Shown here in pieces: positions 1,621-39,970 of a stretch of 54,345 nucleotides of DNA. Source of the stretch: an uncultured Porphyromonadaceae bacterium (lineage in GTDB: Bacteria; Bacteroidota; Bacteroidia; Bacteroidales; Muribaculaceae); the NCBI GenBank assembly GCA_947177575.1, contig CAMWVA010000005.1:1-54345 (forward strand). Direction: 5' to 3'. The notes below the pieces were generated by a model, which was not told the DNA's origin, searched no databases, and saw only the letters and a list, made by a program, of their open reading frames with translations. A program made the translations under genes and the position numbers. How positions within the stretch are numbered: the stretch's first letter is position 1; each line of letters starts with the position of its first letter.

Positions 1621-3453
1621 ATGCTTATTACCCTGATTACACTAACTTTGGCGGCTATCGGATTTGTCTGGGGCCGTATACGTGCTGACATCGTAGCTTT
1701 GCTTGCGCTGATGGCTCTCACAGTCTCAGGTATCATTACCACTCAGGAAGCCCTGTCAGGTTTTTCAAACTCCATTGTCATAATGATGGTAGGTTTGTTT
1801 GTGGTAGGTGGTGCTATATTCAATACAGGTCTTGCCAAGACTATCGGTACACGTCTGCTCAAATTAGGAGGAGGTAGTGAGACACGTCTGTTTATAGTAG
1901 TTATGTGTGGCACAGCCCTTATAGGTGGTTTTGTCAGTAATACCGGCACAGTAGCCCTGATGTTGCCTATCGTAGTGAGTATGACAGCTGCTGCAGGCGG
2001 TACTCCGCGCCGGTTACTGATGCCTTTAGCTTTTGCAAGTTCGTTAGGTGGTATGTTGACTTTGATAGGTACACCTCCGAACCTTGTAGTGGCTGAAGTG
2101 TGGGAAGATTTTTCCGGCCAACCTCTTACCTTCTTTACTTTTCTACCGGCAGGTGCTGTGTGCCTTATAGCCGGCACCTTACTACTGATTCCCCTAAGCA
2201 AATGGTTTCTTGGTCAGCGTCCGGACAGCACCGATGAGGAAAGTCAGCATCGTTCGCTTACAGACCTTGTTGAGGAATATGGTCTGAACGCCGATCTCTA
2301 TCGTGTGACTGTAGGCACAGGTTCGCCTATATGTGGCAAGTCATTGGGTGAGTTACACCTGAGAAGCGATTTCGGTATTGAAATTCTTGAAGTACGAAGC
2401 GGTGATACTTCACGTGGACTTATACGTAATGTCTCACAACAGGCACCTACAGCTGCAACTGTTATCGAAAGTGGCGACACACTCTATCTACGCGGTTCAA
2501 AAGAGGATATAGGACGCTTTGTAGTTGATTTCCGACTGACCCTCGATGCAACGAATAGCGAACGCGGACGCCTGCAGTTTTACGACATCGGTATAGCGGA
2601 AATCGTGCCTATGCCTAATTCTCCGATTCTGAAAGATACAATAGCTGCACTTGATTTCAGTAACCGTTTCGGAGTCAATGTCATCGGTATACGCCGTAAG
2701 AATACCTATCTGACACATAATCTGGGAGAGGAAACCGTACGACAAGGTGATGTTCTGTTAGTGCAGGGTTCATGGCAAAACATAGGTAAACTTGGTGACC
2801 ACACACGTGACTGGGTGGTCATGGGACAGCCACTTTCAGATGCTGCCAAAGTAACTTTGGATTATAAAGCTCCAGTGGCAGCTATCATTATGCTCGCTAT
2901 GGTATTGGGGCTTGTCTTCGAAGTAGTACCTGCCGTAGTGACTGTGATGCTGGCAGCATTAGCTATGGTACTGACAGGCTGCTTCCGCAATGTAAGTGAT
3001 GCTTATAAGACCATCAACTGGGAGAGCATCGTACTGATTGCCGCTATGATGCCGATGTCGTTCGCACTGGACAAAACCGGTGTCTCGGCTTGGGTAGCTG
3101 ATTCATTAGTTGAATCGCTCGGTGGTTTAGGTCCTCACTGGCTACTGGCCGGTGTCTATTTCACTACCTCCGTCATGACTCTTTTCATCAGCAATACCGC
3201 TACTGCCGTACTGTTAGCTCCGATAGCCCTTGAAAGTGCCGTATCATTCGGAGTCAGTCCGCTACCGTTCCTGTTTGCTGTCACCTTTGGTGCCAGCCTA
3301 TGCTTTGCCTCACCCTTCTCAACACCCCCTAACGCACTCGTTATGCCGGCTGGTCAATACACCTTCACAGACTATCTCAAAGTCGGCGCGCCTCTCCAAT
3401 TCCTGCTTGGCCTCCTGATGATATTCGTGCTGCCTTTAATTTTTCCTTTCTAA
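1621..3453 (+). CDS. SLC13-family anion permease with two TrkA-C (RCK) domains
   Basis: A 610-aa inner-membrane transporter of the DASS/SLC13 type, expected to move sulfate, dicarboxylates or similar anions with Na+ or H+. The N-terminal third holds hydrophobic helices with the family-like segment GFVSNTGTVALMLPIV and the conserved IGTPPNLVVAE around residues 145-160. The central part (about 205-390) carries two soluble TrkA-C-like domains (TVGTGSPICGKSLGELHLR and IVPMPNSPILKDTIAALDF). A second membrane half follows, with FISNTATAVLLAPIAL and FSTPPNALVMPAGQYTF mirroring the first-half motifs. This layout is usual for the bacterial SLC13 subgroup with RCK domains. The ATG at 1621 is used because the in-frame TTG at 1585 sits in a promoter box. 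The gene ends where a period-9 repeat array begins. Substrate cannot be told from sequence. Confidence 0.88.
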   Translation: MLITLITLTLAAIGFVWGRIRADIVALLALMALTVSGIITTQEALSGFSNSIVIMMVGLFVVGGAIFNTGLAKTIGTRLLKLGGGSETRLFIVVMCGTALIGGFVSNTGTVALMLPIVVSMTAAAGGTPRRLLMPLAFASSLGGMLTLIGTPPNLVVAEVWEDFSGQPLTFFTFLPAGAVCLIAGTLLLIPLSKWFLGQRPDSTDEESQHRSLTDLVEEYGLNADLYRVTVGTGSPICGKSLGELHLRSDFGIEILEVRSGDTSRGLIRNVSQQAPTAATVIESGDTLYLRGSKEDIGRFVVDFRLTLDATNSERGRLQFYDIGIAEIVPMPNSPILKDTIAALDFSNRFGVNVIGIRRKNTYLTHNLGEETVRQGDVLLVQGSWQNIGKLGDHTRDWVVMGQPLSDAAKVTLDYKAPVAAIIMLAMVLGLVFEVVPAVVTVMLAALAMVLTGCFRNVSDAYKTINWESIVLIAAMMPMSFALDKTGVSAWVADSLVESLGGLGPHWLLAGVYFTTSVMTLFISNTATAVLLAPIALESAVSFGVSPLPFLFAVTFGASLCFASPFSTPPNALVMPAGQYTFTDYLKVGAPLQFLLGLLMIFVLPLIFPF

Positions 3454-3696
3454 TCGAGTAGTCGGTTTTATCCGATTACTCCGATTAGTCGGAACTATCG
3501 GAGTAATCGGAGCAATCGGAATTAATCAGAGTAATCTGAATTGTCGGAACTATCGGAGTAGGCGGAGTGTCTAAGACAGGCTGACTATTACGCTCACTTC
3601 GATAATTCCGATAGTTCGGATTGCTCCGATTATTCCGACTATCCGATAAATCCGATTACTCCGATAGTTCCGACTACTCCGACTACTTCCGATTAT
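3451..3696. repeat. Period-9 degenerate repeat array 1 with inverted halves and a core
   Basis: About 245 bp of 9-nt units. Left of about 3565 most units read as ATCGGAGTA variants; right of about 3600 they read as TCCGATTAC variants, so the halves are inverted copies. Between them is a non-repetitive core, 3580-3603, containing CTGACTATTACGCTCACTTC. The same core occurs inverted in the array at 27738. The array starts at the stop codon of the permease and runs into the last codons of the minus-strand four-helix-bundle gene, whose TAG (3683-3685) lies within a repeat unit. Confidence 0.9.
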
Positions 3697-4261
3697 CCTG
3701 CGGGCCGTTTCGGTTGTTTCTTGCTTCACGTCTTGCCTTACTCATAGCTTCACGGATACCACCTTCCTCCAGAAATCGTTGTTCCTGTACCTGTAACATT
3801 CTGTCAAGAAGGTACTGTGCCTGTTTAACAAGAGTTATCATCAGATTACAGAAATCCTCAGCCGGAAGACGTTGACCTAACTGTATATATTCCTCCTCAA
3901 ATGCCTGTGTGCGCACATACACCCTAAGCTGCTGCAGACGTACGTGATTCCCAACCCAGCGCTCCAGTCCATTGAATAGCAGATAATCAATATAATCCTC
4001 CTCAAGTTCGGCCAAAGATGCACGTGCCACATTAGTAAGTTTGATTTCTGTCTCTTTAGAAGTCACAGCCGCCTTACTCCCCTCCACAATATTCTGTTTA
4101 CATGAACGGGCAGCCTGCTGCATCTGCCCGACAGTACGTGAGCTCAAAGGTAAAAACCGGCGTACAAATATCTCGGTCAGTACCGATATCTGCTGTGACA
4201 CTTTATACACAACCAGATTACGCACATCGCCATTATGATTAAGAAATCCTTCAGTTTGCAT
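3683..4261 (-). CDS. Four-helix-bundle protein with suffix domain (S23/IVP-like)
   Basis: A 192-aa cytoplasmic, helix-rich protein. Residues about 10-115 (LVVYKVSQQISVLTEIFVRR; QMQQAARSCKQNIVEGSKAA; ASLAELEEDYIDYLLFNG) show the pattern of the four-helix-bundle family first described from 23S rRNA intervening sequences; the key segment is A-x-S-x-x-x-NI-x-EG. The C-terminal part (about 120-180) matches the four-helix-bundle suffix type in character: amphipathic helices ending in an Arg/Asn-rich tail. Members are thought to be nucleic-acid binding, but no function is established. No reverse transcriptase or variable repeat is nearby, so a diversity-generating-element role is not supported. The gene is bracketed by repeat arrays 1 and 2, and its last residues (DNRK) and stop are encoded by array 1 units. 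No promoter is obvious. Confidence 0.8.
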   Translation of the reverse strand: MQTEGFLNHNGDVRNLVVYKVSQQISVLTEIFVRRFLPLSSRTVGQMQQAARSCKQNIVEGSKAAVTSKETEIKLTNVARASLAELEEDYIDYLLFNGLERWVGNHVRLQQLRVYVRTQAFEEEYIQLGQRLPAEDFCNLMITLVKQAQYLLDRMLQVQEQRFLEEGGIREAMSKARREARNNRNGPQDNRK

Positions 4262-4290
4262 ATACTTTAGTATTATATTATCTTATGTAT

Positions 4291-4492
4291 CTGATAGTTC
4301 TGACTTCTCGGATTAATCCGAATTATCGGATTGATCTGATTTCTCTGACTTATCCGATTATTCGGATTGCTCCGATTTATCTGATTAATCCGATTGTTCG
4401 GATTGCTCCGATTAATCCGACTTTCCGATAGTTCTGATAACTCCGATAACTCCGACTTCTCAGATTAATCCGATTACTCTGACAACTCCGAT
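4291..4492. repeat. Period-9 degenerate repeat array 2
   Basis: About 200 bp of units such as TCCGATTAC, TCGGATTGC and TCTGATAGT, largely in one orientation with a few reversed units. It has no copy of the core found in arrays 1 and 3. It fills most of the 334-bp gap between the four-helix-bundle gene and the membrane-protein gene at 4596; the rest holds the latter's promoter. Confidence 0.85.
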
Positions 4493-4543
4493 CTAATCTC
4501 AATCTGCAAAGTTACTGATTTTCTTAAGAAAGAAAAATAATAA

Positions 4544-4575
4544 TTTGTCAGCCGTTAATAAATTCCCTACTTTTG
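4544..4575 (+). promoter_or_regulatory. Complete -33/-7 promoter for the membrane-protein gene
   Basis: TTTG at 4544-4547 and TACTTTTG at 4568-4575 are separated by 20 nt, an exact fit to the Bacteroidota promoter layout. The -33 box overlaps the TTG at 4545, so the coding start must be the ATG at 4596. Confidence 0.75.
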
Positions 4576-4595
4576 TAAAAAATACACTTAAAAAC

Positions 4596-5735
4596 ATGAA
4601 ATCATCAACTAAGTGGCTCCAACGTATATTCCGCTGGGAAGTAGCCGGTGTCGTAATAGCTGCCGTCAGCCTTATCTATGCATATAAAAGCTTCAAGATT
4701 GACGAAGGTGGCGAATTGCAGATAACCTCCAATTTCCCTACCTCCGACAATACGGGCGATATTGCAGTCGTCACCGATGCTACCGATTTAGCATCCACAC
4801 TTAACCAGCTATTGCCGGAATTCCGTAACTCAATAAAGTACTCACTCAAAAATTTCAATCTTACCTACGATATTACTACCTCTGAGCCAGTCAACTTCAC
4901 CTTCTCTCCTGATTTTTCCATGCGGCAGGTATCACCGACACGGCTCAGCGCCACTCTTGCCGACCATACTCTCTACGCCCACAGTCAGGTTGAAGCGCCA
5001 TTCGTCACAGCTACACCCTCGCAAAACAACTTCAACATGACTGTAGCTATACGCGCAACTTTCGACGGAGCAGCCGAACCATACGCCGCTACCTACCGTT
5101 ACCGCTTCTACCCTACTTCAGCACTCAATACCCTTAAAGAAAGAACCAATCATTATGCATATATACTTGAATCTTATAATGATCATCTGACAGAAATCAA
5201 TATTACACCTGCAACTTCTCAATCAGAAGCAGTAACTTCAGAATCCGAAGCTACTAAAACTACTACAACAGGCAAAAATACTACAGCAGTAGAAAATACT
5301 ACATCTGTTTATTCACAAAAGCCCACTTTTAAAGCTGATGAAGGCACCTCACCTCAAGTTTCCAATATCGAAAGCAAACACAAAAATAAGACTACTTCAT
5401 GGGTATATTGGTTTGAGAAATATAAATGGATAATAATTGTTGTAGGAGGAATCTTATTTATAATACTTGTTTTCTCTGATTCATCTGCAATGGAAGCTGT
5501 ATGGGACGATATACATACATGGCCATGGAAACCTAAAGAAATCAGAAACGACGTAAGAACCACTCTTTACGGCTATAGAAAGCACACAACATGGCAAAAA
5601 GTCAAGGCAGATCTGATAATTATACACTCTCTTATAGCCGATATTCTTATGATAGGTATATTTGGAGTGATAATCTACTTTATAATAGGGTGGATTATAG
5701 ATGCTTGTAAATGGTGTATAGGGCTATTCCAATAA
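4596..5735 (+). CDS. Membrane protein of unknown function
   Basis: Not recognised. The 379-aa protein has an N-terminal membrane segment (about residues 14-30, VAGVVIAAVSLIYAY), then an extracytoplasmic-looking region of about 170 residues rich in Thr, Ser, Asn and aromatic residues with beta-type alternation. A Thr/Ser/Glu-rich linker follows (about 210-275; SESEATKTTTTGKNTT). Next is a second membrane segment (about 288-304, WIIIVVGGILFIILVF), a basic aromatic stretch containing PWKPKEIRN, and a C-terminal hydrophobic segment (ILMIGIFGVIIYFIIGWII). Codon use in the second half is more AT-rich than in neighbouring housekeeping genes, and no homologue comes to mind, so it may be lineage-restricted. 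It has its own promoter and ends before a long perfect hairpin at 5821. Confidence 0.65.
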   Translation: MKSSTKWLQRIFRWEVAGVVIAAVSLIYAYKSFKIDEGGELQITSNFPTSDNTGDIAVVTDATDLASTLNQLLPEFRNSIKYSLKNFNLTYDITTSEPVNFTFSPDFSMRQVSPTRLSATLADHTLYAHSQVEAPFVTATPSQNNFNMTVAIRATFDGAAEPYAATYRYRFYPTSALNTLKERTNHYAYILESYNDHLTEINITPATSQSEAVTSESEATKTTTTGKNTTAVENTTSVYSQKPTFKADEGTSPQVSNIESKHKNKTTSWVYWFEKYKWIIIVVGGILFIILVFSDSSAMEAVWDDIHTWPWKPKEIRNDVRTTLYGYRKHTTWQKVKADLIIIHSLIADILMIGIFGVIIYFIIGWIIDACKWCIGLFQ

Positions 5736-5820
5736 TTAAACCATCTTCTTTCAAGAATTACCCTTAGCAAGTTCTAATTCTAACCTCGTATTCAAAAAAA
5801 TGAGTTTAATAACCAATAAG

Positions 5821-5867
5821 AAGTACTCAGAGCCTGTAAGCCGACGGCTTACAGGCTCTGAGTACTT
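5821..5867. terminator. Long perfect hairpin, probable bidirectional terminator
   Basis: Two 22-nt arms (beginning AAGTACTCAGAGCCTG) are perfect reverse complements around the 3-nt loop GAC. It lies between the plus-strand membrane-protein gene and the 3' end of the minus-strand tRNA-Leu. Position suggests termination of both transcripts, although U-runs are weak on each side. Confidence 0.65.
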
Positions 5868-5870
5868 CTG

Positions 5871-5952
5871 TGCGCACGAAGGGACTCGAACCCCCACGTC
5901 GTAAGACACTAGATCCTAAGTCTAGCGCGGCTACCAATTACGCCACGTGCGC
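5871..5952 (-). tRNA. tRNA-Leu (anticodon UAG)
   Basis: The minus strand folds as an 82-nt class II tRNA. The acceptor stem is GCGCACG/CGTGCGC with discriminator A. The D arm contains AATTGGTAG, the anticodon stem is CTAGA/TCTAG, and the loop CTTAGGA gives anticodon UAG. A long variable arm precedes the T arm with loop TTCGAGT. CUA-reading leucine identity follows from the anticodon, the class II shape and the A73 discriminator. The 3' CCA is not encoded. A promoter lies upstream at 5983-6014. Confidence 0.95.
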
Positions 5953-5982
5953 GAGTCATAACCTGTTTGGGTTATGGTTCTG

Positions 5983-6014
5983 CAAAGTTAGATATACTTT
6001 TTGATTTAACCAAA
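5983..6014 (-). promoter_or_regulatory. Promoter for tRNA-Leu
   Basis: On the minus strand TTTG (6014-6011) and TAACTTTG (5990-5983) are spaced by 20 nt, the full consensus arrangement. Predicted transcription starts about 25 nt before the mature tRNA 5' end. The short leader contains an ATAACC/GGTTAT inverted repeat. Confidence 0.75.
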
Positions 6015-6061
6015 CTTCAGCCGTATTTTTTGTGTTTTTTCAGTCAAAAGTCGGAAGGCGA

Positions 6062-6092
6062 TTGCAAATAAGCGTGTTTTTTTGTATCTTTA
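6062..6092 (+). promoter_or_regulatory. Probable parC operon promoter
   Basis: TTG (6062-6064) and TATCTTTA (6085-6092) are 20 nt apart. The -7 box differs from TAnnTTTG only in its last base. It would give a leader of roughly 18 nt before the parC ATG at 6116. Confidence 0.55.
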
Positions 6093-6115
6093 CACGATTT
6101 TTCACTACTTGACTC

Positions 6116-8893
6116 ATGGACGAAATCAACGATAAAGATACAGATATAGAAGCTATAAACAATGATATGGCCGAGGTCGGAAGCGTAGATATAACCACTG
6201 GTGAGGTTATAGAAGCTGATACCGTTGAAGGTGAGGCCATGATTACCGACGAGGCAATGGAAGCCGAAGCGGTAGAAGCCGACAATCAGGTACCCGACTA
6301 TTTCGTACCCGGCTCCGGTGACAAAAAGACTATCCTCTCCGGCATGTTCCGCAATTGGTATCTGGAATACGCCTCATACGTTATACTCGAACGTGCCGTA
6401 CCTCATATTGAAGACGGTCTCAAACCGGTGCAACGTCGTATCCTGCACGCAATGCAGACTCTTGACGACGGACGTTACAATAAAGTTGCCAATGTCGTGG
6501 GTCACACCATGCAGTATCATCCTCACGGTGATGCTTCGATAGGCGATGCACTTGTACAACTTGGCCAGAAGGAACTGCTTATTGACACTCAGGGAAACTG
6601 GGGTAATATACTCACCGGCGATTCGGCTGCCGCTCCCCGTTATATCGAGGCGCGCCTGTCAGAATTTGCTCTTGAGACTGTGTTCAATCCGAAAATTACT
6701 GAATGGACTGTATCATACGACGGCCGTAAGCGTGAACCGGTTACGCTGCCCGTCAAATTCCCGCTGCTGTTAGCTCAGGGTGTTGAAGGTATTGCCGTAG
6801 GCTTATCATCTAAGATTCTGCCCCACAATTTCAACGAAATCATCGAAGCTGCCATAGCCTACCTGCACGACAAGCCATTCCAGCTGCTACCCGACTTTCA
6901 GACAGGTGGCTTTATGGACGTATCGCGCTACAACGACGGTGCACGCGGTGGTTCAGTGAAGGTACGTGCCAAGATAGAGAAAATAGATAATAAAACCCTT
7001 GCCATTACCGAAATACCATTCGGTAAAACAACTTCAACCCTCATCAGTTCGATACTGAGCGCGATGGAGAAAGGCAAGATAAAAATACGTAAGGTCGATG
7101 ACAATACTTCGGCTACAGCCGAAATACTTGTGCATCTACAGGCCGGTACCTCATCAGATAAAGCTATAGATGCCCTCTACGCCTTCACCGACTGCGAAGT
7201 CAGCATCTCGCCTAACTGCTGTGTCATCTGTGACCGGAAACCACACTTTATCTCTGTCAGCCAGCTGCTGCGCTTCTCGGTTGACCACACACGCGAATTA
7301 CTCAGGCGTGAACTTGAAATCCGCCTTGCAGAACTGCGCGAGGCACGACTCTTCGCTCTGCTTGAGAAAATATTTATCGAAGAGCGTATCTACAAGGATC
7401 AAGAGGTTGAAACCGCTGCTAACATGACCGCTGCTTTAGCACACGTAGACAGTCGTCTTGAACCTTTTAAAGCCGAGTTTTTCCGTCCTCTCAACCGTGA
7501 CGATCTTGTACGTCTGTGGGAGATAAAGATGGCTCGTATCCTGAAGTTCAATTCAGATAAAGCTAACGAACGAATCACCGCACTTCAGAAAGATATAGAG
7601 AAACTTACCAATAATCTCGAAAATCTGACCGAATACACAATCCAGTGGTTCCGTCACCTCGGTAAGAAATACGGTTCACACTATCCGCGCCGCACAGTGA
7701 TACGCGGCTTCGATTCTATTGAAGCCACTAAAGTGGCAGAAGCCAACAAGCGGCTCTACTTCGACAAAGAAGGAGGCTTTATAGGCACTGCCCTCAAGGA
7801 CCACAAGTTTATGTTCACCTGTTCGGATATTGACGATATTCTTATCATTTACCGTGACGGTACATATAAACTTGTCAAGGTACAGGATAAGATATATATC
7901 GGTAAGAAAGTACTGCATATAGGTCTGTTTAAGAAAGGTGACAAGCGCACCATCTATAACGTTATATACCGCAACGGAGGTAAAGAAGCATTCTCCTATA
8001 TGAAACGTTTCTTTATCACCGGTCTTACACGTGACAAGGAATATAACATTACCAAGGGTATACCGGGTTCTCGTATAGACTGGCTTACGGTCAATCCTAA
8101 CGGCGAGGCAGAGATTGTCAAGGTTGCTCTGAAAGACGAGCCCAACGAAACAATGCGGCGTCCGAGAGCTAAAGAGATAATGGTTAACTTTGCCGAACTT
8201 GACATCAAAGGCAAAGAATCGTTAGGAAATCTTGTGACCAAATATCAGATCCGAGACATAACCCTTCAGGAACGTGGCGGCAGCACGTTAGGTGGCCGTG
8301 AAGTATGGTTCGACCGTGATGTATTACGTCTCAATTATGACGGACGCGGTGAAAGTCTCGGAATATTCCAAGGTGAGGATAAAGTGCTTATCCTCACTAA
8401 GACCGGCGAATTTTTCACTTCCTCCTATTCAGACGGCAACCATTATGATGACAATATACTGCGTATAGAAAAATTTGTCCCTGATAAGGTATGGACTCTT
8501 GTTCTTTTCGATGCCGGACAGGGTTTTCCGTATCTAAAACGTTTCACTTTCGAGCCTTCGAGTCGTCCGCAACGTTTCGTGGGTAATGAGCCGACTTCGC
8601 GTATCATAATCCTTACAGACGTAGCCTTTCCCCGATTTGAGGTGCGTTTCGGTGGCAACGACGCGGTGCGCCCTGCACTTGAGATAGATGCTGACGAATT
8701 TATCGGTGTCAAGAGTTTTAAAGCCAAAGGTAAACGTATCTCCAACTTTAATATCGACTCCATTACCGAACTTGAACCCTTACGCTTCCCGGAGTCTGCG
8801 GAAACTGTCTCCGAAGAAGAACAGAAACCGGAAACTTCTTCCAGCAGACCTAAGACTATACTGGACGATCTTTTTAAAATCGACGATTTATGA
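6116..8893 (+). CDS. parC: DNA topoisomerase IV subunit A (ParC)
   Basis: Breakage-rejoining subunit of topoisomerase IV, which decatenates replicated chromosomes together with ParE (encoded at 52083). The 925-aa protein has the winged-helix/tower core with KPVQRRILHAM and the catalytic tyrosine Y176 in AAPRYIEARLSE. A coiled-coil tower region follows (about 380-500), then a C-terminal beta-pinwheel-like part from about residue 560. The short, divergent pinwheel and the neighbouring genes favour ParC over GyrA, but the two families are close. An unusual acidic N-terminal tail of about 65 residues (MDEINDKDTDIEAINND..., rich in Glu, Asp and Ala) precedes the conserved domain. The stop codon overlaps the next start (ATGA), implying coupled translation with the two downstream envelope genes. 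Confidence 0.93.
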   Translation: MDEINDKDTDIEAINNDMAEVGSVDITTGEVIEADTVEGEAMITDEAMEAEAVEADNQVPDYFVPGSGDKKTILSGMFRNWYLEYASYVILERAVPHIEDGLKPVQRRILHAMQTLDDGRYNKVANVVGHTMQYHPHGDASIGDALVQLGQKELLIDTQGNWGNILTGDSAAAPRYIEARLSEFALETVFNPKITEWTVSYDGRKREPVTLPVKFPLLLAQGVEGIAVGLSSKILPHNFNEIIEAAIAYLHDKPFQLLPDFQTGGFMDVSRYNDGARGGSVKVRAKIEKIDNKTLAITEIPFGKTTSTLISSILSAMEKGKIKIRKVDDNTSATAEILVHLQAGTSSDKAIDALYAFTDCEVSISPNCCVICDRKPHFISVSQLLRFSVDHTRELLRRELEIRLAELREARLFALLEKIFIEERIYKDQEVETAANMTAALAHVDSRLEPFKAEFFRPLNRDDLVRLWEIKMARILKFNSDKANERITALQKDIEKLTNNLENLTEYTIQWFRHLGKKYGSHYPRRTVIRGFDSIEATKVAEANKRLYFDKEGGFIGTALKDHKFMFTCSDIDDILIIYRDGTYKLVKVQDKIYIGKKVLHIGLFKKGDKRTIYNVIYRNGGKEAFSYMKRFFITGLTRDKEYNITKGIPGSRIDWLTVNPNGEAEIVKVALKDEPNETMRRPRAKEIMVNFAELDIKGKESLGNLVTKYQIRDITLQERGGSTLGGREVWFDRDVLRLNYDGRGESLGIFQGEDKVLILTKTGEFFTSSYSDGNHYDDNILRIEKFVPDKVWTLVLFDAGQGFPYLKRFTFEPSSRPQRFVGNEPTSRIIILTDVAFPRFEVRFGGNDAVRPALEIDADEFIGVKSFKAKGKRISNFNIDSITELEPLRFPESAETVSEEEQKPETSSSRPKTILDDLFKIDDL

Positions 8894-10778: not shown

Positions 10779-10874
10779 TCTACGGCCAACAATGCTTAAA
10801 AGTAAGCAACTCAGCCTAATACTTTAATATAAACAATACATTTAAAATATTTTTCAAAAAAATCACCAAAAAAA

Positions 10875-11186: not shown

Positions 11187-11188
11187 TA

Positions 11189-27500: not shown

Positions 27501-27749
27501 GTGATGCCGATGATGTTCTCTACCGGTGCCGGTGCCAACAGCCGTATCGAATTAGGCACAGCCGTAGTCTTCGGCATGGCCCTCAACGGCCTTATCGGCA
27601 CTCTGTTCGTACCTACCTTCTGGGAAGTAATGCAGCGCTTTAACGAGAACTACCTCTCAAAACTCATCAAAAAGCCAACCTTCAAAGCAACCCAGGCACA
27701 GATGGACGCTGTCGATAGTGCCCAATCGCTGGACAGTCAATCCGAGTAA
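24561..27749 (+). CDS. RND multidrug efflux permease (AcrB/HAE1 type)
   Basis: Proton-driven inner-membrane pump, 1062 aa. It starts MFSKFFITRPIFATVLAILM, the classic first transmembrane helix. The conserved paired aspartates of helix 4 appear in AIAIVVDDAIVVVED (about 404-418), and the porter domain carries GANAQTVAQTIGIPIEQQLNG near the start. The second half repeats the 6-helix pattern with GLILLLGMSAKNAILIVEYA and FRPIMMTALAFVFGVMP. HAE1-type drug export is the best reading; the exact drug range is unknown. The in-frame TTG at 24519 would overlap the adaptor gene, so the ATG at 24561 is preferred. The last residues (SQSE) and TAA stop come from the first unit of repeat array 3. Confidence 0.95.
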   Translation: MFSKFFITRPIFATVLAILMVLAGIMCMTTLPVAQYPDISQPTVMVSAAYPGANAQTVAQTIGIPIEQQLNGVENMLYMSSTSGSDGSYSLTVTFKNGTDLDEAAIDVQNRISLVSGSLPSEVTQQGVSVNKESSNQVLFASLETSRPELYDALYLTNYATLYLIDPITRVEGVGGVQAFGAGDYSMRVWLDPQAMRIRNLTPQQVIAAIEGQNTNVTAGSVGTPPGSGDTQFEFTLTSQGRLATAEEFGNIIIRSNDSGLLRLKDVAKVELGSESYSMVSRVNGRECALIGVQQLPGANALEVADGVIKELDRLSQYFPEGITYNVVLNQTVFVRESIDDVLSTFVITSLIVLVVILIFLQNWRAVIIPMLTIPVSLIGTFAVMKLMGFTINTLTLFGLVLAIAIVVDDAIVVVEDCSRLVDKGILNRIQAAEKAMQELTGPVVGEVLVLMSVFIPTAFISGITGQLYKQFALTIAISTAFSGFNALTLTPALCALFLTPRKPAKFFVYVWFNKLWTKVLHLYDRIISKMLAHPFVSMMIFLIVAGAGIYGFIAMPTSYIPSEDMGYFMTSVQLPTGASLERTEKVVNALSEEIKKLPEVKDVMTITGFSMMGGGAGSNMASLNIMLVPWKERGRKGSINNVIAKVDEISAQFQEAIIFSVNPPAIPGIGMSSGLQMQLLDINSLGPEEMLKAIGELRIAAEADPRIASLTSLYEGVVPQYSLLIDRDRVEMQGVDLDNIFSALSAYMGGNYVNDFIKLGHIYQVRLQAEGSSRRNVADVLQIAVPNSQGNMVPLSSFVTIKPTMGQELVSRYNMYSTASVTATPAHGVSSSEAIKAMEELVTEHLGKNYSYAWTGMAYQETQSGTTISFVFFFAIIMTILVLAAQYESWTDPIAVVLSMPVAILGTVVGCLAMSQSISIYTEIGLILLLGMSAKNAILIVEYAMDFRKSGMDIVKAAHDAGVIRFRPIMMTALAFVFGVMPMMFSTGAGANSRIELGTAVVFGMALNGLIGTLFVPTFWEVMQRFNENYLSKLIKKPTFKATQAQMDAVDSAQSLDSQSE

Positions 27750-27962
27750 TCCGAGTTATCAGAATTATCCGAGTCATCGGAGAGTCGGAGTAATCGGAGT
27801 AATCGGAGCAATCGGAATTATCGGAGTAATCGAAGTGAGCGTAATAGTCAGCTTGTCCTATGTGCTCTGACTGCTCCTGATTATTCCGATAGTTCCGATT
27901 GCTCCGATTACTCCGACTACTCCGATAGCTCGGAGAAATCCGATTACTCGGACAACTCGGAC
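27738..27962. repeat. Period-9 degenerate repeat array 3 with inverted halves and core
   Basis: About 225 bp. The left half (27741-27832) is mostly ATCGGAGTA-type units and the right half (about 27880-27962) TCCGATTAC-type. About 40 nt on each side of the centre pair with few mismatches. The centre contains GAAGTGAGCGTAATAGTCAG (27832-27851), the exact reverse complement of the array 1 core. The array begins in the last codons of the RND pump gene and ends about 10 nt from queE, between convergent genes. Confidence 0.9.
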
Positions 27963-30809: not shown

Positions 30810-30993
30810 ATAGCAGACAATTACATTGTAAATAATTATAACAGTAAATAATTATCCAACTCGAATAAAAATTCTATCTAAAAAATTTTTTAATCTTATG
30901 AACATTATTCGCACTTAGGTGTTGTTAAGTGAAAGAAGATAGATTTTTGTTCATTAAGTTTATTACTGACACATGGGCCAAACGGTCCATAAC

Positions 30994-31029
30994 AATAAAA
31001 CGGCCGCTCGTGAGAGCAGCCGTTTTATT
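30994..31029. terminator. Hairpin between convergent genes, overlapping the lptF/G stop
   Basis: AATAAAACGGC (30994-31004) pairs with GCCGTTTTATT (31019-31029), with an inner GCTC/GAGC extension across a C-A mismatch and a GTGA loop. It overlaps the minus-strand stop codon at 31028-31030 and ends in T-rich arms on both strands, so it can act as a bidirectional terminator. Confidence 0.75.
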
Positions 31030-33070: not shown

Positions 33071-33141
33071 TGGCTCGGACTTGGTTATGCCGGTACCTCA
33101 GATAACTGTGACTGTCGGGCACCGGCAATGGTTTCGGGGCG

Positions 33142-33149
33142 TAAAGTTA
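33142..33149 (-). promoter_or_regulatory. Probable -7 box for the LptF/LptG gene
   Basis: The minus strand reads TAACTTTA, one base from TAnnTTTG, about 72 nt before the ATG. It is back-to-back with the pta promoter. Confidence 0.4.
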
Positions 33150-33181
33150 ATAATTTATTATCACATTCCGTAGGTTTTTAT

Positions 33182-33189
33182 TAACTTTG
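33182..33189 (+). promoter_or_regulatory. -7 box for pta-ackA
   Basis: TAACTTTG is a full consensus match, 77 nt before the pta ATG. No TTTG at the expected -33 position was found. Confidence 0.6.
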
Positions 33190-33266
33190 CAGCAACAGCC
33201 ACGGGAGAGGTCGTCACCGGGGCGTTATCCTTAAATAATCCGACCAAACTTAAAATGTAATATATC

Positions 33267-34280
33267 ATGACACTTTTCGAAAGGCTCACCAAAAAAGCAC
33301 AGGAACACCCCCAGCGCCTTGTGCTGCCCGAGTCGCTTGAGCCGCGCACACTGCAGGCTGCCGACCGCATTCTCGCCGACAAGATCGCTGAAATTATCTT
33401 CATCGGTAAGAAAGATGAGATTCTTGCTAAAGCCGAAGAACTCGGCCTTGCCCACATAGCCGAGGCTTCAATCTATGACCAGAACGATACGGACTTTACA
33501 GAGAAGTATGCCGAACTCTTCTGCGAGCTGCGTAAGAAAAAAGGCGTCACCATCGAGGAAGCCCGCGAAACTGTCAAAAATCCTCTCTATCTGGGCTGTC
33601 TGCTTATCAAGGGCGGTTTTGCCGACTGTATGGTAGCCGGTGCTCTCAGTCCTACATCACACGTGCTGCGTGCTGCCTTCCAGGTGCTCAAGATGAAACC
33701 GGGTATCACCGTTGTGTCGGGCGCCTTTATCATGCTGCTGCCCGAAGATGTGCCTTTCGGTGAAGACCACATGCTTGTTTTCGCTGACTGTGCCGTTGTG
33801 CCCGACCCCACTACAGAAGAACTTGCACAGATAGCCATAGCCACAGCCAAGACTACCCGCGATATAGCAGGTCTCGACCCGGTAGTAGCTATGCTGAGCT
33901 TCTCTACCAAGGGCAGTGCCAGTCATGAGCGTGTAGACAAAGTACGCCTCGCCACTGAATTGGCTCACCAACTCGACCCGACACTTAAAATCGACGGTGA
34001 GCTGCAGAGCGATGCCGCTATCGTACCCTCGGTAGGCGCACAGAAAGCTCCCGGAAGTCCTGTAGCCGGTCACGCTAACACACTTATCTTCCCCTCGCTC
34101 GAAGTAGGTAATATCGCGTATAAACTCGTGCAGCGTCTGGCAGGTGCAGGTGCCGTAGGTCCTATTCTTCAGGGTCTCGCAGCTCCGGTAAATGACCTTT
34201 CACGCGGTGCTACAGTAGATGACATAGTTAATACTATCATCGTGACCTGTAATCAGGCTATAGGTGACAAAAATCTCTGA
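33267..34280 (+). CDS. pta: Phosphate acetyltransferase
   Basis: Converts acetyl-CoA and phosphate to acetyl-phosphate; with AckA it makes acetate and ATP. The 337-aa protein is the short form lacking the E. coli N-terminal regulatory region. Typical segments: QRLVLPESLEPRTLQAADRI at the start, FADCMVAGALSPTSHVLRAA (about 118-137), LDPVVAMLSFSTKGSASHER with the substrate-site Ser/Arg, and KAPGSPVAGHANTLIFPSLE near residue 265. ackA follows 52 nt downstream in the same direction, so the pair is almost surely co-transcribed from the promoter at 33182. Confidence 0.96.
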   Translation: MTLFERLTKKAQEHPQRLVLPESLEPRTLQAADRILADKIAEIIFIGKKDEILAKAEELGLAHIAEASIYDQNDTDFTEKYAELFCELRKKKGVTIEEARETVKNPLYLGCLLIKGGFADCMVAGALSPTSHVLRAAFQVLKMKPGITVVSGAFIMLLPEDVPFGEDHMLVFADCAVVPDPTTEELAQIAIATAKTTRDIAGLDPVVAMLSFSTKGSASHERVDKVRLATELAHQLDPTLKIDGELQSDAAIVPSVGAQKAPGSPVAGHANTLIFPSLEVGNIAYKLVQRLAGAGAVGPILQGLAAPVNDLSRGATVDDIVNTIIVTCNQAIGDKNL

Positions 34281-34332
34281 ATAGACTGACTTTACCTTTT
34301 TCCACAACAACGCCAACAACTTATCTCTTGTT

Positions 34333-35532
34333 ATGAAAATACTTGTGCTCAACTGCGGCAGCAGCAGCGTTAAATACAAACTCATCGACAGCACCGATAA
34401 GAAGGTGCTCGCCGAAGGCGGTGTCGAGAAAATCGGTCTGCCCGATTCTTTCCTGAAGTTTAAGCGTCCGGACGGATCTAAAGAGACTATTGTAGTCGAT
34501 ATGCCTACTCATAAGGAGGCTGTTAAGAATGTGCTCGACATTCTTACCGATCCTAAGGAGGGTGTTATCAAGAGCTATGATGAAATCGGTGCCGTAGGTC
34601 ACCGCGTGGTACATGGTATGGACAAATTCTCGAAGTCTGTACTTATCACTCCGGAAGTTATCGAGAAAGTTAAGGAGTGCTATGATGTAGCTCCTCTTCA
34701 TAACCCGGCCAACATCACAGGTATCGAAGCTGTCACTGATCTGATACCGGGTGTACCTCAGGTCGGTGTCTTTGACACTGCTTTCCATCAGACTATGCCG
34801 CCTAAGGCATACATGTACGCTCTGCCATACGAAGCTTATGAGAAGTACGGCGTACGCCGCTACGGTTTCCACGGCACCAGTCATCGTTATGTAAGCCGCC
34901 GTGCCTGCGAGTTCCTCGGTCTGCCATACGACAAACAGCGCATTATCACCTGCCATATCGGTAACGGTGCCAGCATCACAGCTATAGCTGACGGCAAGAG
35001 TGTCGATACTTCTATGGGTCTGACTCCTACCGAGGGCCTTATGATGGGTACCCGTGTAGGTGACGTTGATCCGGGAGCTTTGGCTTACCTCATCAAGAAA
35101 GACAATCTCGATGCTGACGGCCTTATGAAACTTATCAACAAACAGTCAGGCGTAGCCGGTGTATCAGGTATATCAAGCGATATGCGTGACATCGAGAATG
35201 CTGTGGCAGCCGGTGACGAGCGTGCCAAATTAGCCCTCGACATGTACGAATACCGCATTCTCAAATATATCGGTGCGTACGCAGCCGTACTCGGCGGTGT
35301 AGACGTAATCGTCTTTACCGGCGGTGTAGGCGAAAATCAGACCTCAACCCGCGAGAAGATATGCAAGCAGTTAGCTTTCATGGGAATTACCTTTGATGCC
35401 GAAGCTAACAAAGTACGCGGCGAGGAAATCGAGATTTCCGGTAAGGACTCCAAAGTGCATGTTGTCGTTATTCCTACCGACGAGGAGATGATGATAGCAC
35501 AGGATACCGCCGAGATAGCCGGCAAGCTCTAA
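34333..35532 (+). CDS. ackA: Acetate kinase
   Basis: Makes ATP from acetyl-phosphate in the acetate overflow pathway. The 399-aa protein has the ASKHA-fold signature MKILVLNCGSSSVKYKLID at the N-terminus. Other signatures are VGHRVVHGMDKFS, FDTAFHQTMPPKAYMYALPY, YGFHGTSHRYVS with the catalytic histidine, and CHIGNGASITAI. The C-terminal VFTGGVGENQTSTRE is the adenosine-site motif. Length is normal. The intergenic region behind it contains a strong hairpin (35573-35621) and then the 42-bp tandem repeats. Confidence 0.97.
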   Translation: MKILVLNCGSSSVKYKLIDSTDKKVLAEGGVEKIGLPDSFLKFKRPDGSKETIVVDMPTHKEAVKNVLDILTDPKEGVIKSYDEIGAVGHRVVHGMDKFSKSVLITPEVIEKVKECYDVAPLHNPANITGIEAVTDLIPGVPQVGVFDTAFHQTMPPKAYMYALPYEAYEKYGVRRYGFHGTSHRYVSRRACEFLGLPYDKQRIITCHIGNGASITAIADGKSVDTSMGLTPTEGLMMGTRVGDVDPGALAYLIKKDNLDADGLMKLINKQSGVAGVSGISSDMRDIENAVAAGDERAKLALDMYEYRILKYIGAYAAVLGGVDVIVFTGGVGENQTSTREKICKQLAFMGITFDAEANKVRGEEIEISGKDSKVHVVVIPTDEEMMIAQDTAEIAGKL

Positions 35533-35572
35533 TCAACTGCTGATAACACTCAGCTACGACTAATGCTTCAGC

Positions 35573-35621
35573 TACGGACGCCACCTGCGGCCATCATACC
35601 AGGCCACACGTGGTGTCCGTA
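35573..35621 (+). terminator. Strong hairpin after ackA, probable terminator
   Basis: TACGGAC (35573-35579) pairs with GTCCGTA (35615-35621), continued by CCAC/GTGG and an inner GGCC/GGCC. It lies 40 nt past the ackA stop. There is no U-run, so it may terminate weakly or guard the mRNA 3' end. Confidence 0.55.
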
Positions 35622-35627
35622 ACTTTG
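35620..35627 (+). promoter_or_regulatory. Possible -7 box for lgt
   Basis: TAACTTTG is an exact consensus -7 match just behind the ackA hairpin. If used, transcription would start near 35634 and place the whole 42-bp tandem repeat in the lgt leader. No -33 box is seen. Confidence 0.45.
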
Positions 35628-35645
35628 TCATCGCGAAGCTTCTAC

Positions 35646-35812
35646 TATCGCGAAGCTAGTCTCCGCTCGGAGCTCTGCTCCGTAAGCCATCGCGAAGCTA
35701 GTCTCCGCTCGGAGCTCTGCTCCGTAAGCCATCGCGAAGCTAGTCTCCGCTCGGAGCTCTGCTCCGTAAGTCATCGCGAAGCTGGTCTCCGCCCGGAGCT
35801 CTGCTCCGTAAT
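35646..35812 (+). repeat. Four tandem copies of a 42-bp hairpin-bearing repeat
   Basis: Units start at about 35646, 35688, 35730 and 35772, exactly 42 bp apart. Each reads ATCGCGAAGCTAGTCTCCGC and continues with CGGAGC-TCT-GCTCCG, a perfect 6-bp stem with a 3-nt loop. CTCCG-CT-CGGAG offers an alternative competing stem. Copies 2 and 3 are identical over the unit; copy 4 differs at about four positions. The 316-bp gap between ackA and lgt holds only this, the hairpin at 35573 and the -7 box. Confidence 0.93.
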
Positions 35813-35848
35813 AAATAATATTATTAACATCTACTCAACATCTTCCCA

Positions 35849-36709
35849 ATGCTTAACTTCATCGTCTGGAATGCCGACCCGGTGATCTTCTCACTCGGTC
35901 CTTTCAGTGTGCGCTGGTATGGTCTGGCTTTCGCCGTGGGCTTTATCATCGGCTACAACATCGTAGCCCGCATGTTCAAACATGAGGGTGCCCCCGAAAG
36001 CTGGCTCGGCATACTGCTTGCCTACGTGGTAGTAGCCACAATCGTCGGCGCACGCTTAGGCCATGTCTTCTTCTACGAATGGGATTATTACTCAGCCCAT
36101 CCGGCTGAAATCTTCAAGGTATGGCAGGGAGGACTTGCCAGCCACGGAGGAACCATAGGTAATATAATAGCCGTGTTTCTGTTCTCATGGTTTGTGGCTA
36201 AAAAACCTGCCAGCTGGACTTTCGATAAACTCGTCATTCCGATAGCTCTCGTAGGCGGTCTGATACGACTGGGCAACCTTATGAACAGCGAAATCTACGG
36301 CGGTCCCACGACACTTCCGTGGGGATTTATATTCATGCGTAACGGCGAAACAGTACCGGCTCACCCCACCCAGCTCTATGAGGCAATATGCTACTTCGCA
36401 TTGTTCGCATTGCTGATGTGGATGTACTGGAAACGCAACGCCGAAGAACGCCCGTGGCTTATAACAGGTGTATTCTTTATCGGTATATTTCTCCCCCGCT
36501 TCCTTATAGAGTATGTCAAGAATGTACAGGTACAATCTGAATATGATATGATAGCCCGTTACGGCATGAATCTTGGTCAGATGCTCAGCATACCTTTCAT
36601 ATTGTTAGGCATCGGACTGGTAATATGGGCAATGTCTCACCCGCGCCAGCACTGGGAGTTTCCTAACCGTTTCGCACCCGAACCGTCTGCACACTCACAT
36701 CGACACTGA
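35849..36709 (+). CDS. lgt: Prolipoprotein diacylglyceryl transferase
   Basis: Transfers diacylglycerol from phosphatidylglycerol to the lipobox cysteine of prolipoproteins at the inner membrane. The 286-aa polytopic protein has at least six hydrophobic segments. Conserved elements are FSVRWYGLAFAVGFIIGY (about 12-29) and GARLGHVFFYEWDYY. GGLASHGGTIGNI contains the Lgt HGG-type motif, and RLGNLMNSEIYGGPT carries the conserved Arg/Asn. PAHPTQLYEA is near residue 170. Length and order are standard. The Lgt substrate set includes the lipoprotein-like genes in this window. Its leader holds the 42-bp tandem repeats. Confidence 0.96.
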   Translation: MLNFIVWNADPVIFSLGPFSVRWYGLAFAVGFIIGYNIVARMFKHEGAPESWLGILLAYVVVATIVGARLGHVFFYEWDYYSAHPAEIFKVWQGGLASHGGTIGNIIAVFLFSWFVAKKPASWTFDKLVIPIALVGGLIRLGNLMNSEIYGGPTTLPWGFIFMRNGETVPAHPTQLYEAICYFALFALLMWMYWKRNAEERPWLITGVFFIGIFLPRFLIEYVKNVQVQSEYDMIARYGMNLGQMLSIPFILLGIGLVIWAMSHPRQHWEFPNRFAPEPSAHSHRH

Positions 36710-36735
36710 TTTTGGGTAATTACCGCCAATATTTT

Positions 36736-36767
36736 TTTGTTTGTTTGCAAATATTAATGTAATTTTG
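36736..36767 (+). promoter_or_regulatory. Consensus promoter for the cvpA-suf operon
   Basis: TTTG (36736-36739) and TAATTTTG (36760-36767) are 20 nt apart, a full match. It probably drives cvpA, sufC, sufD and possibly sufS. Confidence 0.7.
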
Positions 36768-36881
36768 TAGCAATCCGTTAATCTAACAGTCACGAAAGAC
36801 TGTGACACGGCTACAAATCTCGAAAACAAACAACGAAAAACAAACAACTTGGAACAACTGTGGCAATCATTGAGCGAGATG

Positions 36882-37568
36882 GCCCACATTGAGGCTGTCG
36901 GTGACGTAGGTTATCACGTCTTAGCGCTGCTGGCCGGTTCTCAGGCTCTCATACGCGGCTTTCGCCGCGGACTTACACGTCAGGTCTGCGCTGTGTTAGG
37001 CCTGGCGTTCGGAGTTGTATGTGCCCATCTCTTTGCCGATGAAGGACAGCGTATGGCACGTATGCTTTTCCCCGGTATAGAATCACATTATTGTTCGGGC
37101 TTTATATATAGCCTTATATCGGCTGCCGGCATCTATACGTGTGTGTTCTTATGTTTCCGTTGGCTCACACGTGTGCTCGGACGTGCTCTGGAGGTTATAC
37201 ATACAGGCATCTTCAATGCCTTACTCGGATCAGGCTTCAACTTTACAAAGACACTATTGGTACTTTCGATGGCCTATAACAGTGTTGTGTGTGTCGACCC
37301 GTCATCTAAACTAATGAAGTATGCTTCAGCGTCTGACGGTAATGTAGTCGAAGCAGTAATGCGTCTGGCACCGGCTCTGCTTGGAAGTATGAGTCTCGAA
37401 GATCTCGAACATCTTATCAAGCTGCACGAGGCACGCGACATATCACAAAACCTCGACCCAGCCGTGAGCGTTTTAAATACAGATACCGATAGTGAATTAC
37501 CTTTATATGCAGCTACCGATACCCGCGACCTCTCTCCGGTCAACATAAACCTTAGTTCATCTATATAG
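36882..37568 (+). CDS. CvpA-family membrane protein
   Basis: A 228-aa inner-membrane protein of the CvpA family (named from colicin V production; molecular role poorly defined). The N-terminus has the family pattern of a hydrophobic helix followed by basic residues: [24 protein letters not shown]. More helices follow ([55 protein letters not shown]). The C-terminal 70 residues are soluble. A TTG at 36849 would add 11 residues; I prefer the ATG at 36882, giving the usual short lead into helix 1. It ends 5 nt before sufC, exactly where sufB would be expected in many relatives. Confidence 0.85.
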
Positions 37569-37573
37569 AAAAA

Positions 37574-38359
37574 ATGCTAAAAGTCAAAGACCTGCATGCC
37601 CGCATCAACGGCAAAGAAATACTGAAAGGCATAAATCTCGAAGTTCGTCCCGGAGAGGTACACGCAATAATGGGTCCTAACGGGTCAGGTAAGTCAACTC
37701 TTTCGATGGTACTTGCCGGCAACCCGGCTTATGAGGTCACCGGAGGTGAAGCTGAGTTCTACGGAAAGGACTTACTGGCAATGGCACCGGAAGTTAGAAG
37801 TCATGAGGGATTATTCCTCGGTTTTCAGTATCCTGTTGAAATTCCGGGAGTATCAATGGTCAATTTCATGCGTGCCGCTGTCAACGCACGCCGCGAATAC
37901 TTAGGCCAGCCCCCGATGAGTGCCACAGACTTTCTGAAACTTATGCGTGAAAAACGGGCGGTAGTCGAACTTGATACCAAACTGGCCTCGCGTTCGGTCA
38001 ACGAAGGCTTCTCAGGCGGAGAGAAAAAACGCAACGAAATTTTCCAAATGGCTGTGCTTGAACCGCGTCTGTCAATTCTTGACGAGACAGACTCAGGTCT
38101 TGATATAGATGCACTGCGTATCGTAGCCGAGGGCGTCAATAAACTTAAGACCGACCGCAACGCAACAATCGTCATAACCCATTATCAACGTCTGCTTGAC
38201 TACATAAAGCCTGATTTTGTACATATACTTTACAAAGGCCGTATAGTCGAGACAGGCGGTCCGGAATTGGCTCTCGAACTCGAGGAGAAAGGTTACGACT
38301 GGATAAAGGCCAGAGAGGACGAAAAAGAAAAACACGACCCTGACAAGAAGCAGTTATGA
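37574..38359 (+). CDS. sufC: Fe-S cluster assembly ATPase SufC
   Basis: ABC-type soluble ATPase of the SUF scaffold, which drives the SufBCD complex for iron-sulfur cluster building. The 261-aa protein shows Walker [10 protein letters not shown] (about 35-43), [14 protein letters not shown] typical of SufC, the signature [13 protein letters not shown], and Walker B with [16 protein letters not shown]. That D-E-T-D-S-G-L-D form is the SufC mark. The C-terminus ([24 protein letters not shown]) is normal. The stop overlaps the sufD start (ATGA), implying translational coupling. It follows cvpA by 5 nt with no sufB between. Confidence 0.96.
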
Positions 38360-39708
38360 GTGCAATTCACCAGTATTTAGATCTTTATGAGTCGAATCGC
38401 GAGCTTATAGACTCTAAGAGCGCTCCGCTGCTCAATGCGCTGCGTCCGAAAGCTGCCGAAGCCTTACAGACCATGCGCCTACCGACACGTGGCTCTGAAG
38501 ATTATGAACTCACCGATCTCGAAAAGATGCTCGCTCCTGATTTCGGTGTCAACATAGCACGTGTGCCGTTACCTGTAGACCCGGCACGGACGTTCCGCTG
38601 TGATGTGCCACACATGTCGACCACACTGTTTATGCTCGTCAACGACAAGTGTGCCGAGACAGATACTACACGCCGTGGACTACCTGATGGTGTACTGGCC
38701 GGAAGTCTGCGCGATATAGCCGCTTCGCATCCTGACGTGTTAGCACCTTATTTCGGACATATAGCACCGCTTTCAAACCCTGTGGTAGCACTCAACTCAC
38801 TGCTTGCACAAGACGGTTTCGTGCTTTATGTACCTCGTGGTGTACGTATTGAAAAGACTATACAGCTTGTCGATATCCTTAGTCACGAAGCTCCGCTTAT
38901 GGCTGTACGCCGATTGCTTATAATAATGGAAGCTGACAGTGCGGCTACTCTGTTAGTATGCGATCACACACAGAACGCCGGTGTGCAGCTTTTCAATCTC
39001 CAGACAGTCGAAGTCTTTGCCGGTGCCGGCGCAAGACTTGATATCTATGACCTTGAGGAATCATCGACAGCTACCTCACGCTTGTCAGCTATGTATATAA
39101 AGCAGGAGCAGAACAGTAATGTTCTTATCGACAGCATAACCCTCTACAACGGCAGCACACGCAACGAGTATCATTGTAAACTCGATGGCCGTGGCGCACA
39201 TCTGCGTCTGCTTGGCATGGGTATAGAAGACGACACACGTCATCTTGACACATATAGTCGTATCGAGCATAATGTGCCTGATTGTACCACTGACGAACTG
39301 TTCAAGTATGTAGTCGATGATGAAGCTACCGGTGCCTTTACAGGCCGGATATATGTAGCTAAAGGTGCCAGCGGCACCGAGGCTTACCAGTCAAACCGTA
39401 ATCTGGTAGGTAGTGACACAGCACGGATGCACTCCAAACCGCAACTCGAAATCTATAACGATGACGTCAAGTGCTCACATGGCACCGCCATAGGCCAGCT
39501 CGACCCGATGCAGGTGTTCTATATGCGCACCCGTGGCCTGAGCGAAGCCAAGGCACGCCTGCTGCTCAAACAGGCCTTTATGGCCGATGTGCTCGACGGC
39601 ATACGCGAAGAGAGCCTGCGCGACAGACTGCGCCACCTTGTGGAACGGCGCTTCGCAGGCGATACCACACCCTGTACAAGCTGCGGCGCTGAAGGGTGTA
39701 AGTTTTAA
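38356..39708 (+). CDS. sufD: Fe-S cluster assembly protein SufD
   Basis: Partner of SufB and SufC in the SUF scaffold. The 450-aa protein has an N-terminal helical region ([17 protein letters not shown]) and a right-handed beta-helix core (about 150-390). The core has [40 protein letters not shown] and [20 protein letters not shown], and then the SufBD C-terminal signature [39 protein letters not shown] is a common SufB/SufD end. The ending [12 protein letters not shown] adds three cysteines that could bind metal. I call it SufD rather than SufB from size, the N-terminal type and the position behind sufC. Its stop is followed 3 nt later by repeat array 4. Confidence 0.92.
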
Positions 39709-39710
39709 AT

Positions 39711-39970
39711 CAGTCGGAGTAATCCGAGTAATCCGAGTAATCGGATTTAGCAGAATTATCGGAGTTATCGGAGAGTCGGAGTAATCCGAACTATCCGAAT
39801 TATCGGAGTTATCCAATAGCTCAGACCTCTCCGATTACTCTGATAATTCTGATAGCTCTGATAATTCTGATAGCTCTGATAATTCTGATAGCTCCGATAA
39901 TTCCGATTAATCCGACAATTCCGATAGCTCCGATTACTCCGATAATTCCGATTACTCTGATAGTTCCGAT
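39711..39970. repeat. Period-9 degenerate repeat array 4, inside the suf operon
   Basis: About 260 bp. The left side (to about 39825) is in the CGGAGTAAT-type orientation, the right side (from about 39830) in the TCCGATTAC type. The right half includes an 18-bp unit, GATAGCTCTGATAATTCT, in about three tandem copies. No core like those in arrays 1 and 3 is visible. It fills the sufD-sufS gap completely; the sufS ATG is formed by the last CCGAT plus GG. Confidence 0.9.

Follow-up and report, generated by a model that had tools for sequence, protein, structure and literature searches.

Introduction

The system that comes nearest in behaviour to the one described here consists of repetitive extragenic palindromic (REP) sequences and REP-associated tyrosine transposases (RAYTs) (PMC2817692, PMC8266576), a REP being defined as a palindrome of 20–40 bp (PMC3733652). 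Here we report on arrays of a 9-nt unit and a small gene between two of them in an uncultured Porphyromonadaceae bacterium (family Muribaculaceae in the GTDB lineage). They were found on contig CAMWVA010000005.1 of assembly GCA_947177575.1, of which positions 1 to 54,345 were analysed (the window). The gene encodes a four-helix-bundle protein with a suffix domain (4HBS protein). As with REPs, paired REPs (REPINs) and RAYTs, dispersed intergenic repeats that can form hairpins occur together with a gene flanked by its cognate repeats, the units are lineage-specific, and repeat and protein drift together. However, RAYTs are HUH (Y1) transposases, whereas the 4HBS protein is an S23-type four-helix bundle, and in place of a short palindrome we find arrays of 9-nt units, 136–348 bp long in this genome and often made up of two converging halves. 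A first-pass annotation of the window had described the arrays as a functional or selfish repeat that is REP/BIME-like (BIME, bacterial interspersed mosaic element); this was apt for their behaviour, but the unit and the non-RAYT protein do not allow membership in that class. On balance we favour the view that the arrays belong, as dispersed copies, to a repeat system of two parts, the 4HBS protein and the period-9 arrays, in which the protein would bind the arrays and have a part in their spread.

Other described systems share single features with this locus. Intervening sequences (IVS) of the S23 type are small elements with an open reading frame (ORF) of their own, and their protein belongs to the same fold family (S23/IVP-type four-helix). 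RNase III excises the IVS of Coxiella from the 23S rRNA in which it sits; the available part of that source does not mention period-9 arrays (PMC4990558). In contrast, the gene in the window is not located in rRNA, and its product has the suffix domain in addition. Rfam models at gathering scores detected one tRNA in the window and no 23S rRNA gene. TAACTGA repeats are also short intergenic direct repeats, some of them in Bacteroidetes, but have a 7-nt unit of a single spelling that, in the principal genome studied, is found for the most part directly before start codons, and the binding proteins proposed in the accessible sections are mere candidates from other families (PMC4679880). The BrickBuilt miniature inverted-repeat transposable element (MITE) of Porphyromonas gingivalis is an intergenic tandem-repeat element with 19 copies in one Bacteroidales genome; it differs by its 23-nt unit and by a leader and a tail, and the excerpts of the source at hand name no partner gene (PMC4596501). 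A literature search limited to open-licence papers found, among the papers listed, no account of a link between 4HBS proteins and repeats.

Avd of the diversity-generating retroelements (DGRs) is a four-helix bundle of possibly similar fold, but no reverse transcriptase (PF00078) was found in the genome studied here, a draft of 3.2 Mb in 210 contigs that is 86.5% complete, or in two other genomes rich in 4HBS genes (G396 and G397). We consider it highly improbable that the arrays are retro-copied, with the 4HBS protein acting as Avd does and a reverse transcriptase supplied in trans.

Results and Discussion

Four arrays and a 4HBS gene in the window

A scan of the whole window for self-match at a lag of 9 nt (>0.58 over 60 nt) returned five stretches, which correspond solely to the four arrays listed in Table 1 (array 1 was split), and zero stretches for the other periods from 4 to 14. 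Tandem Repeats Finder (TRF) called the same arrays, and both methods thus confirm the four positions given by the first-pass annotation. Each unit has a core of 5 nt (TCGGA, or TCCGA as its complement) and a 4-nt spacer. All four arrays are predicted to fold far better than shuffled sequence, with z values of −12.6, −6.9, −15.7 and −10.6 for arrays 1, 2, 3 and 4, respectively (200 dinucleotide shuffles). The flip of unit orientation that had been claimed for arrays 1, 3 and 4 was also recovered: a single clear switch fits 19/20 units of array 3 and 27/27 units of array 4, and a noisier one fits 17/20 units of array 1 (p 0.024). For array 2 no flip had been claimed and none is clear, 20 of its 23 units sharing one orientation (p 0.36).

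Table 1. Positions of the period-9 arrays and of the partner gene in the window.
Feature	Position	Strand	Description
Array 1	3451..3696		TCGGA-type half followed by TCCGA-type half; short non-repeat centre common to array 3
Array 2	4278..4498		Lies upstream of the 4HBS gene; units largely of a single orientation
Array 3	27738..27962		Converging hairpin array; an RND efflux permease gene ends on one side of it and a queE-like gene on the other
Array 4	39711..39970		Converging hairpin array between sufD and sufS
4HBS gene	3683..4261	−	Four-helix-bundle protein with suffix domain, 192 aa, between arrays 1 and 2

Array 1 sets in at the stop codon of a transporter gene and reaches, at its other end, into the 3′-terminal part of the 4HBS gene. 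The permease gene has its stop codon within the first unit of array 3, and array 4 extends up to the start codon of sufS. The trimmed array 2 is separated by 28 and 53 bp from two genes that both begin next to it, at variance with the earlier statement that every array abuts a coding end.

The small gene flanked by arrays 1 and 2 had been left out of the first-pass account. Its product reached 68.6 bits against TIGR04258 ("four helix bundle suffix", cut-off 40), 25.9 bits against TIGR02436 (cut-off 24) and 27.7 bits against PF05635, the latter under the cut-off of 33.8; it matched no family beyond these. An AlphaFold model was obtained with a pLDDT (predicted local distance difference test) of 91.5. 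In an alignment of 50 homologues no invariant or near-invariant column contained histidine, no solved structure was related by sequence at E 0.01, and three 4HBS proteins were without a match to models of defence systems.

The search for a second gene of this type in the same, incomplete genome gave one further TIGR04258 match. This gene adjoins a period-9 array with the unit TATAAGnnt, and similar DNA lies on its opposite side near the contig end. With the TATAAGnnt array as query, 41 matches were found at 21 places in the genome, its own place included. Two 4HBS genes next to two array families mean two genes with two units.

Dispersed copies in the draft genome

Array 3, used as query against its own genome, gave 84 matches; 40 of 63 candidates were scored, so the following counts of arrays are lower bounds. 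Arrays of the window unit occupy at least 41 places, four in the window and 37 in other stretches. An internal switch of orientation was seen in 32 of these 41 arrays, and 31 of the 32 have forward units followed by reverse units, an order that holds whichever strand is read. Compared to 500 shuffles, unit order was significant (p<0.05) in 26/41 arrays, and the TCGGA half comes first in all 26. The orientation switch thus recurs throughout the genome and, among the arrays with significant order, always in one sense. Folding was again strong, with a median z of −11.5 and values below −4 in 35/41 arrays (20 shuffles each).

Placement was analysed for the 28 arrays that have both neighbours called. 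For 18 of these a gene is no more than 30 bp away on one side or the other, and for nine this holds on both sides, the latter compared to 0.5% of random placements. Five of the 28 are located inside an open frame, versus 69% of 2050 random placements, and two of these five frames carry a Pfam domain, N-terminal to the array. Random placement inside genes, which had been named as the observation that would speak against a structured element, is therefore not what we see. The first-pass statement that no array interrupts a gene is correct for the window, but may not extend to these five. These data, together with the presence of array 4 at a junction that is free of arrays in 29 congeners (see below), support well the view that the arrays are a structured, dispersed and probably selfish repeat.

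The 23 arrays that do not interrupt an open frame are found between convergent genes in nine cases, between genes oriented ++ in eight, −− in four and divergently in two. The strong folding and the nine convergent cases would fit a reading of the arrays as gene-end hairpins of the ordinary kind (terminators or mRNA stabilisers) whose period is a by-product. However, the remaining 14 arrays weigh against it, array 4 separates the operon pair sufD-sufS, the two arms have no specific match to each other, and the link to the 4HBS gene would be left unexplained. We therefore regard this explanation as improbable. The arms were compared without gaps in 26 arrays, and their similarity was 0.739 within an array and 0.734 between arrays (p 0.33). 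An inverted duplication as the source of both halves was rejected, since the arms are no likelier to match within an array than across arrays.

Arrays are frequent at contig ends (L033, L039, L042, L043, L045, L046, L049, L053, L058; L102, L105, L106). The assembly seems to break at arrays, and the real copy number is likely to be higher. In L036 two arrays of equal length (1965–2256 and 4066–4357) with the same unit order and fold energy are 2.1 kb apart, each followed by an ORF of 248 aa; this looks like a recent tandem duplication.

Period-9 DNA at 4HBS genes of other genomes

TIGR04258 was detected in 50/395 genomes sampled from the phylum and in 108/198 sampled from the family, the genome studied here being part of both samples, and was absent from 14 control genomes. 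In a first set of loci (60 usable of 62), lag-9 self-match of at least 0.6 was present downstream of 37/60 genes and in 3/217 distant windows, and all other periods from 5 to 15 stayed at or below 10% (period 10: 6/60 versus 0/217). A second set comprised 80 loci kept from at least 573 that were confirmed in named records. Here, lag-9 DNA was found at 58/77 upstream and 42/78 downstream flanks compared to 70/1230 distant windows, with other periods at 10.3% or less.

Both sets were then combined. Of the 142 loci, 8 had no start or frame that could be used and 7 were near-duplicates; their removal left 127, of which 117 were testable. Period-9 DNA within 220 bp was present at either flank in 91/117 4HBS loci, compared to 77/594 control pairs, and at both flanks in 35/117. 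A stricter cut-off left 70/117 loci versus 16/594 controls. In having a gene flanked by its repeats, these 91 loci resemble RAYT-type systems.

The association is also seen in other phyla. Among records titled outside Bacteroidota, 11/22 testable loci had arrays at the strict cut-off; non-Bacteroidota array loci include Kiritimatiellae, Verrucomicrobia, Planctomycetaceae, Deltaproteobacteria, Acidobacteria and Mariprofundaceae, nearly all of them from metagenome bins, so that misbinning is possible. It is our tentative view that the proposed two-part system spans Bacteroidota and at least four other groups. In the complete genome of Prevotella nigrescens (NZ_CP082843.1) a short period-9 array with a CTAG core lies 3′ of the 4HBS gene, with none upstream.

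The order of the two halves was also followed at the flanks of 4HBS genes. The purine-rich half comes first in 23/28 clearly asymmetric hairpin-like segments (p 0.0009), or in 19/24 after omission of four segments that are duplicate loci from two sources; if the hairpin condition is dropped, the count is 31/45. An inverted orientation of the two flanking arrays relative to each other is a by-eye impression only.

Period-9 DNA encodes a low-complexity C-terminal tail in 6/126 4HBS proteins (L227, L232, L250, L259, L125, L144); since 9 is divisible by three, arrays can enter coding ends in frame. In L121 (347–3128) and L302 (2466–5757) the 4HBS gene is located between an hsdM-like methylase gene and the specificity gene hsdS, and in L230 (4549–5715) it directly precedes hsdS. 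Start and stop codons of the hsd-linked 4HBS genes overlap in L302 and L230, and period-9 DNA is also present upstream of all three genes.

Units track proteins and are dispersed in some genomes

Units were obtained from 105/132 4HBS genes, some of them weak. Similarity of units correlated with similarity of proteins over these 105 genes (Mantel r 0.255; maximum of 300 permutations 0.10), with r 0.19 for their protein pairs of less than 60% identity. The correlation was also seen for 74 non-redundant genes with better units (r 0.27, against at most 0.16 in 500 permutations). Two alignment columns (159 and 12) lie above the 99% null maximum and are candidate specificity residues, although clade structure could also account for them.

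Dispersal was lineage-specific in some of the genomes inspected. The array next to the 4HBS gene of G475 had 41 matches in G475 and none in 13 other genomes, six of which have 4HBS genes. For the G484 array six matches were found at home and one weak match in another genome. The array of G571 matched solely itself in G571, with one weak match in G542, and dispersal is therefore not universal. Repeats that are abundant only together with their gene, as expected for a RAYT-type system, are thus seen for G475, with smaller numbers for G484, and not for G571. The purine-rich half also leads in all five dispersed G475 arrays examined, although these were recruited through their likeness to a converging array. 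Its gene and flanks agree with L245, from which G475 would seem to be Muribaculaceae bacterium Isolate-013 (NCI). The unit of the 4HBS array in this isolate is GTGGGACnn; a different array type reads TCGGAGTAA.

Matches to the window unit occur in 26/110 congeners; many are weak, and no more than seven candidates per genome were scored. One congener array hit adjoins a 4HBS gene whose product is 66% identical to that of the window, the next best among the proteins compared reaching 59%.

These observations bear on another reading, in which the arrays arise and spread without the protein, through slippage and recombination, while the 4HBS gene, small and mobile, homes into them as safe landing sites. 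The gene does sit inside or between arrays, which offer plentiful intergenic targets, ISPpu9 copies located in REPs provide a precedent in the part of the report available (PMC8450116), and G571 yielded solely the gene's own array. On the other hand, the two 4HBS genes of the genome studied here each adjoin their own unit, and the unit tracks the protein across phyla; homing, too, would require recognition of the unit. Moreover, the fixed order of the two halves is not produced by slippage alone. We consider such homing rather unlikely.

Array 4 at the sufD-sufS junction

SufD and SufS were compared at 29 junctions among the 58 other genomes with a match. Both genes are adjacent in all 29 congeners, with gaps of −37 to +61 bp (longest-ORF starts). 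None of the 29 has an array at this junction, at which the genome studied here holds one of 260 bp. In the simplest reading of these sequences, array 4 would be an insertion that touches the start codon of sufS. As a control, the sufD flanks of the congeners contained period-9 DNA in 1/29 and 2/29 cases. A lag-9 spot lies within sufS of one of the 29 congeners (L181).

Several arrays abut start codons, among them array 4, and short direct repeats near start codons in Beggiatoaceae have been interpreted, in the sections at hand, as sites of a translation factor or RNA-binding factor (TAACTGA repeats; PMC4679880). That the arrays described here are regulatory binding sites of this kind nevertheless seems improbable to us, since they occur at gene ends as well as at starts, and the sole junction compared is not conserved.

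A possible mechanism

In the two-part system that we favour, a 4HBS gene would be flanked by arrays of its own unit, with gene-free copies scattered chiefly in intergenic gaps; longer arrays would usually consist of two opposed, facing halves with the purine-rich half first. It is most likely that the 4HBS protein binds successive units of the array, either as DNA or as a hairpin in single-stranded DNA or RNA, perhaps in the form of a ring that encircles the repeated unit. For such a ring the Avd pentamer and the TRAP ring offer parallels. No selection for pairing of particular arms was seen, which favours recognition of the unit over that of one fixed hairpin. As a consequence of binding, arrays may be made, kept or copied into new gaps in trans by an enzyme of the host or of another source. 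With unit and protein drifting together, each lineage has its own unit. It is possible, and we put it forward with reserve, that this is a two-part genomic system of a new kind, in which an S23-type protein would recognise 9-nt units and bring about the birth and spread of arrays of converging halves, each protein lineage having a unit to itself. No four-helix fold of this type is known to us to read a nucleic-acid code.

The search for a mobilising enzyme gave matches to reverse transcriptases in 7/14 genomes, 4HBS carriers and non-carriers alike, and to Y1 transposases also in 7/14. Y1_Tnp had no match in G475, despite its many arrays. These 14 genomes do not support either enzyme as a required partner, with the reservation that the draft studied here is incomplete and contains two weak matches to Y1 transposases. 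Regarding carriage by phages, 33 pattern matches in viral contigs resulted in zero confirmed cases, and one 22-nt array pattern had no exact match in viral contigs.

Several points weigh against the proposed system. No catalytic motif was recognised in the 4HBS protein, and the two weak Y1 transposase matches are a possible mover. Selection for pairing of particular hairpin arms is not visible. The dispersed arrays were recruited by similarity to array 3, which possibly favours the order of its halves, and the G571 array lacks a dispersed copy. Even with the loose cut-off, a threshold passed by 13% of control pairs, 26/117 testable 4HBS loci have no period-9 DNA, and at this cut-off periods 8 and 10 are also slightly but significantly in excess (8/117 and 12/117 versus 13/594 and 11/594, respectively). 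In addition, co-inheritance of adjacent DNA could let the unit track the protein without any recognition.

If the proposed system exists, a function would be assigned to a widespread protein family that is so far curated by shape alone, and the repeats that recur at contig ends of this assembly would be accounted for. About 100 natural pairs of protein and unit would be available for solving the recognition rule, and the RAYT-REP lifestyle would have been invented a second time from unrelated parts.

Additional sequence features

The centre shared by arrays 1 and 3 is exact in these two alone among the 41 arrays; this points to arrays 1 and 3 as recent relatives, and the centre was rejected as a general core. 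The motif CACTTCGAT is found at the centre of array 1 (3595–3603) and array 3 (27829–27837), and also beside the unrelated TATAAG array (L060, 50–58). Text resembling CGAAGTGA adjoins arrays in other genomes (L066, L068); both may be chance occurrences. The window also contains a 42-bp tandem repeat at 35647–35811 (3.9 copies, 97% match) that is unrelated to the 9-nt unit.
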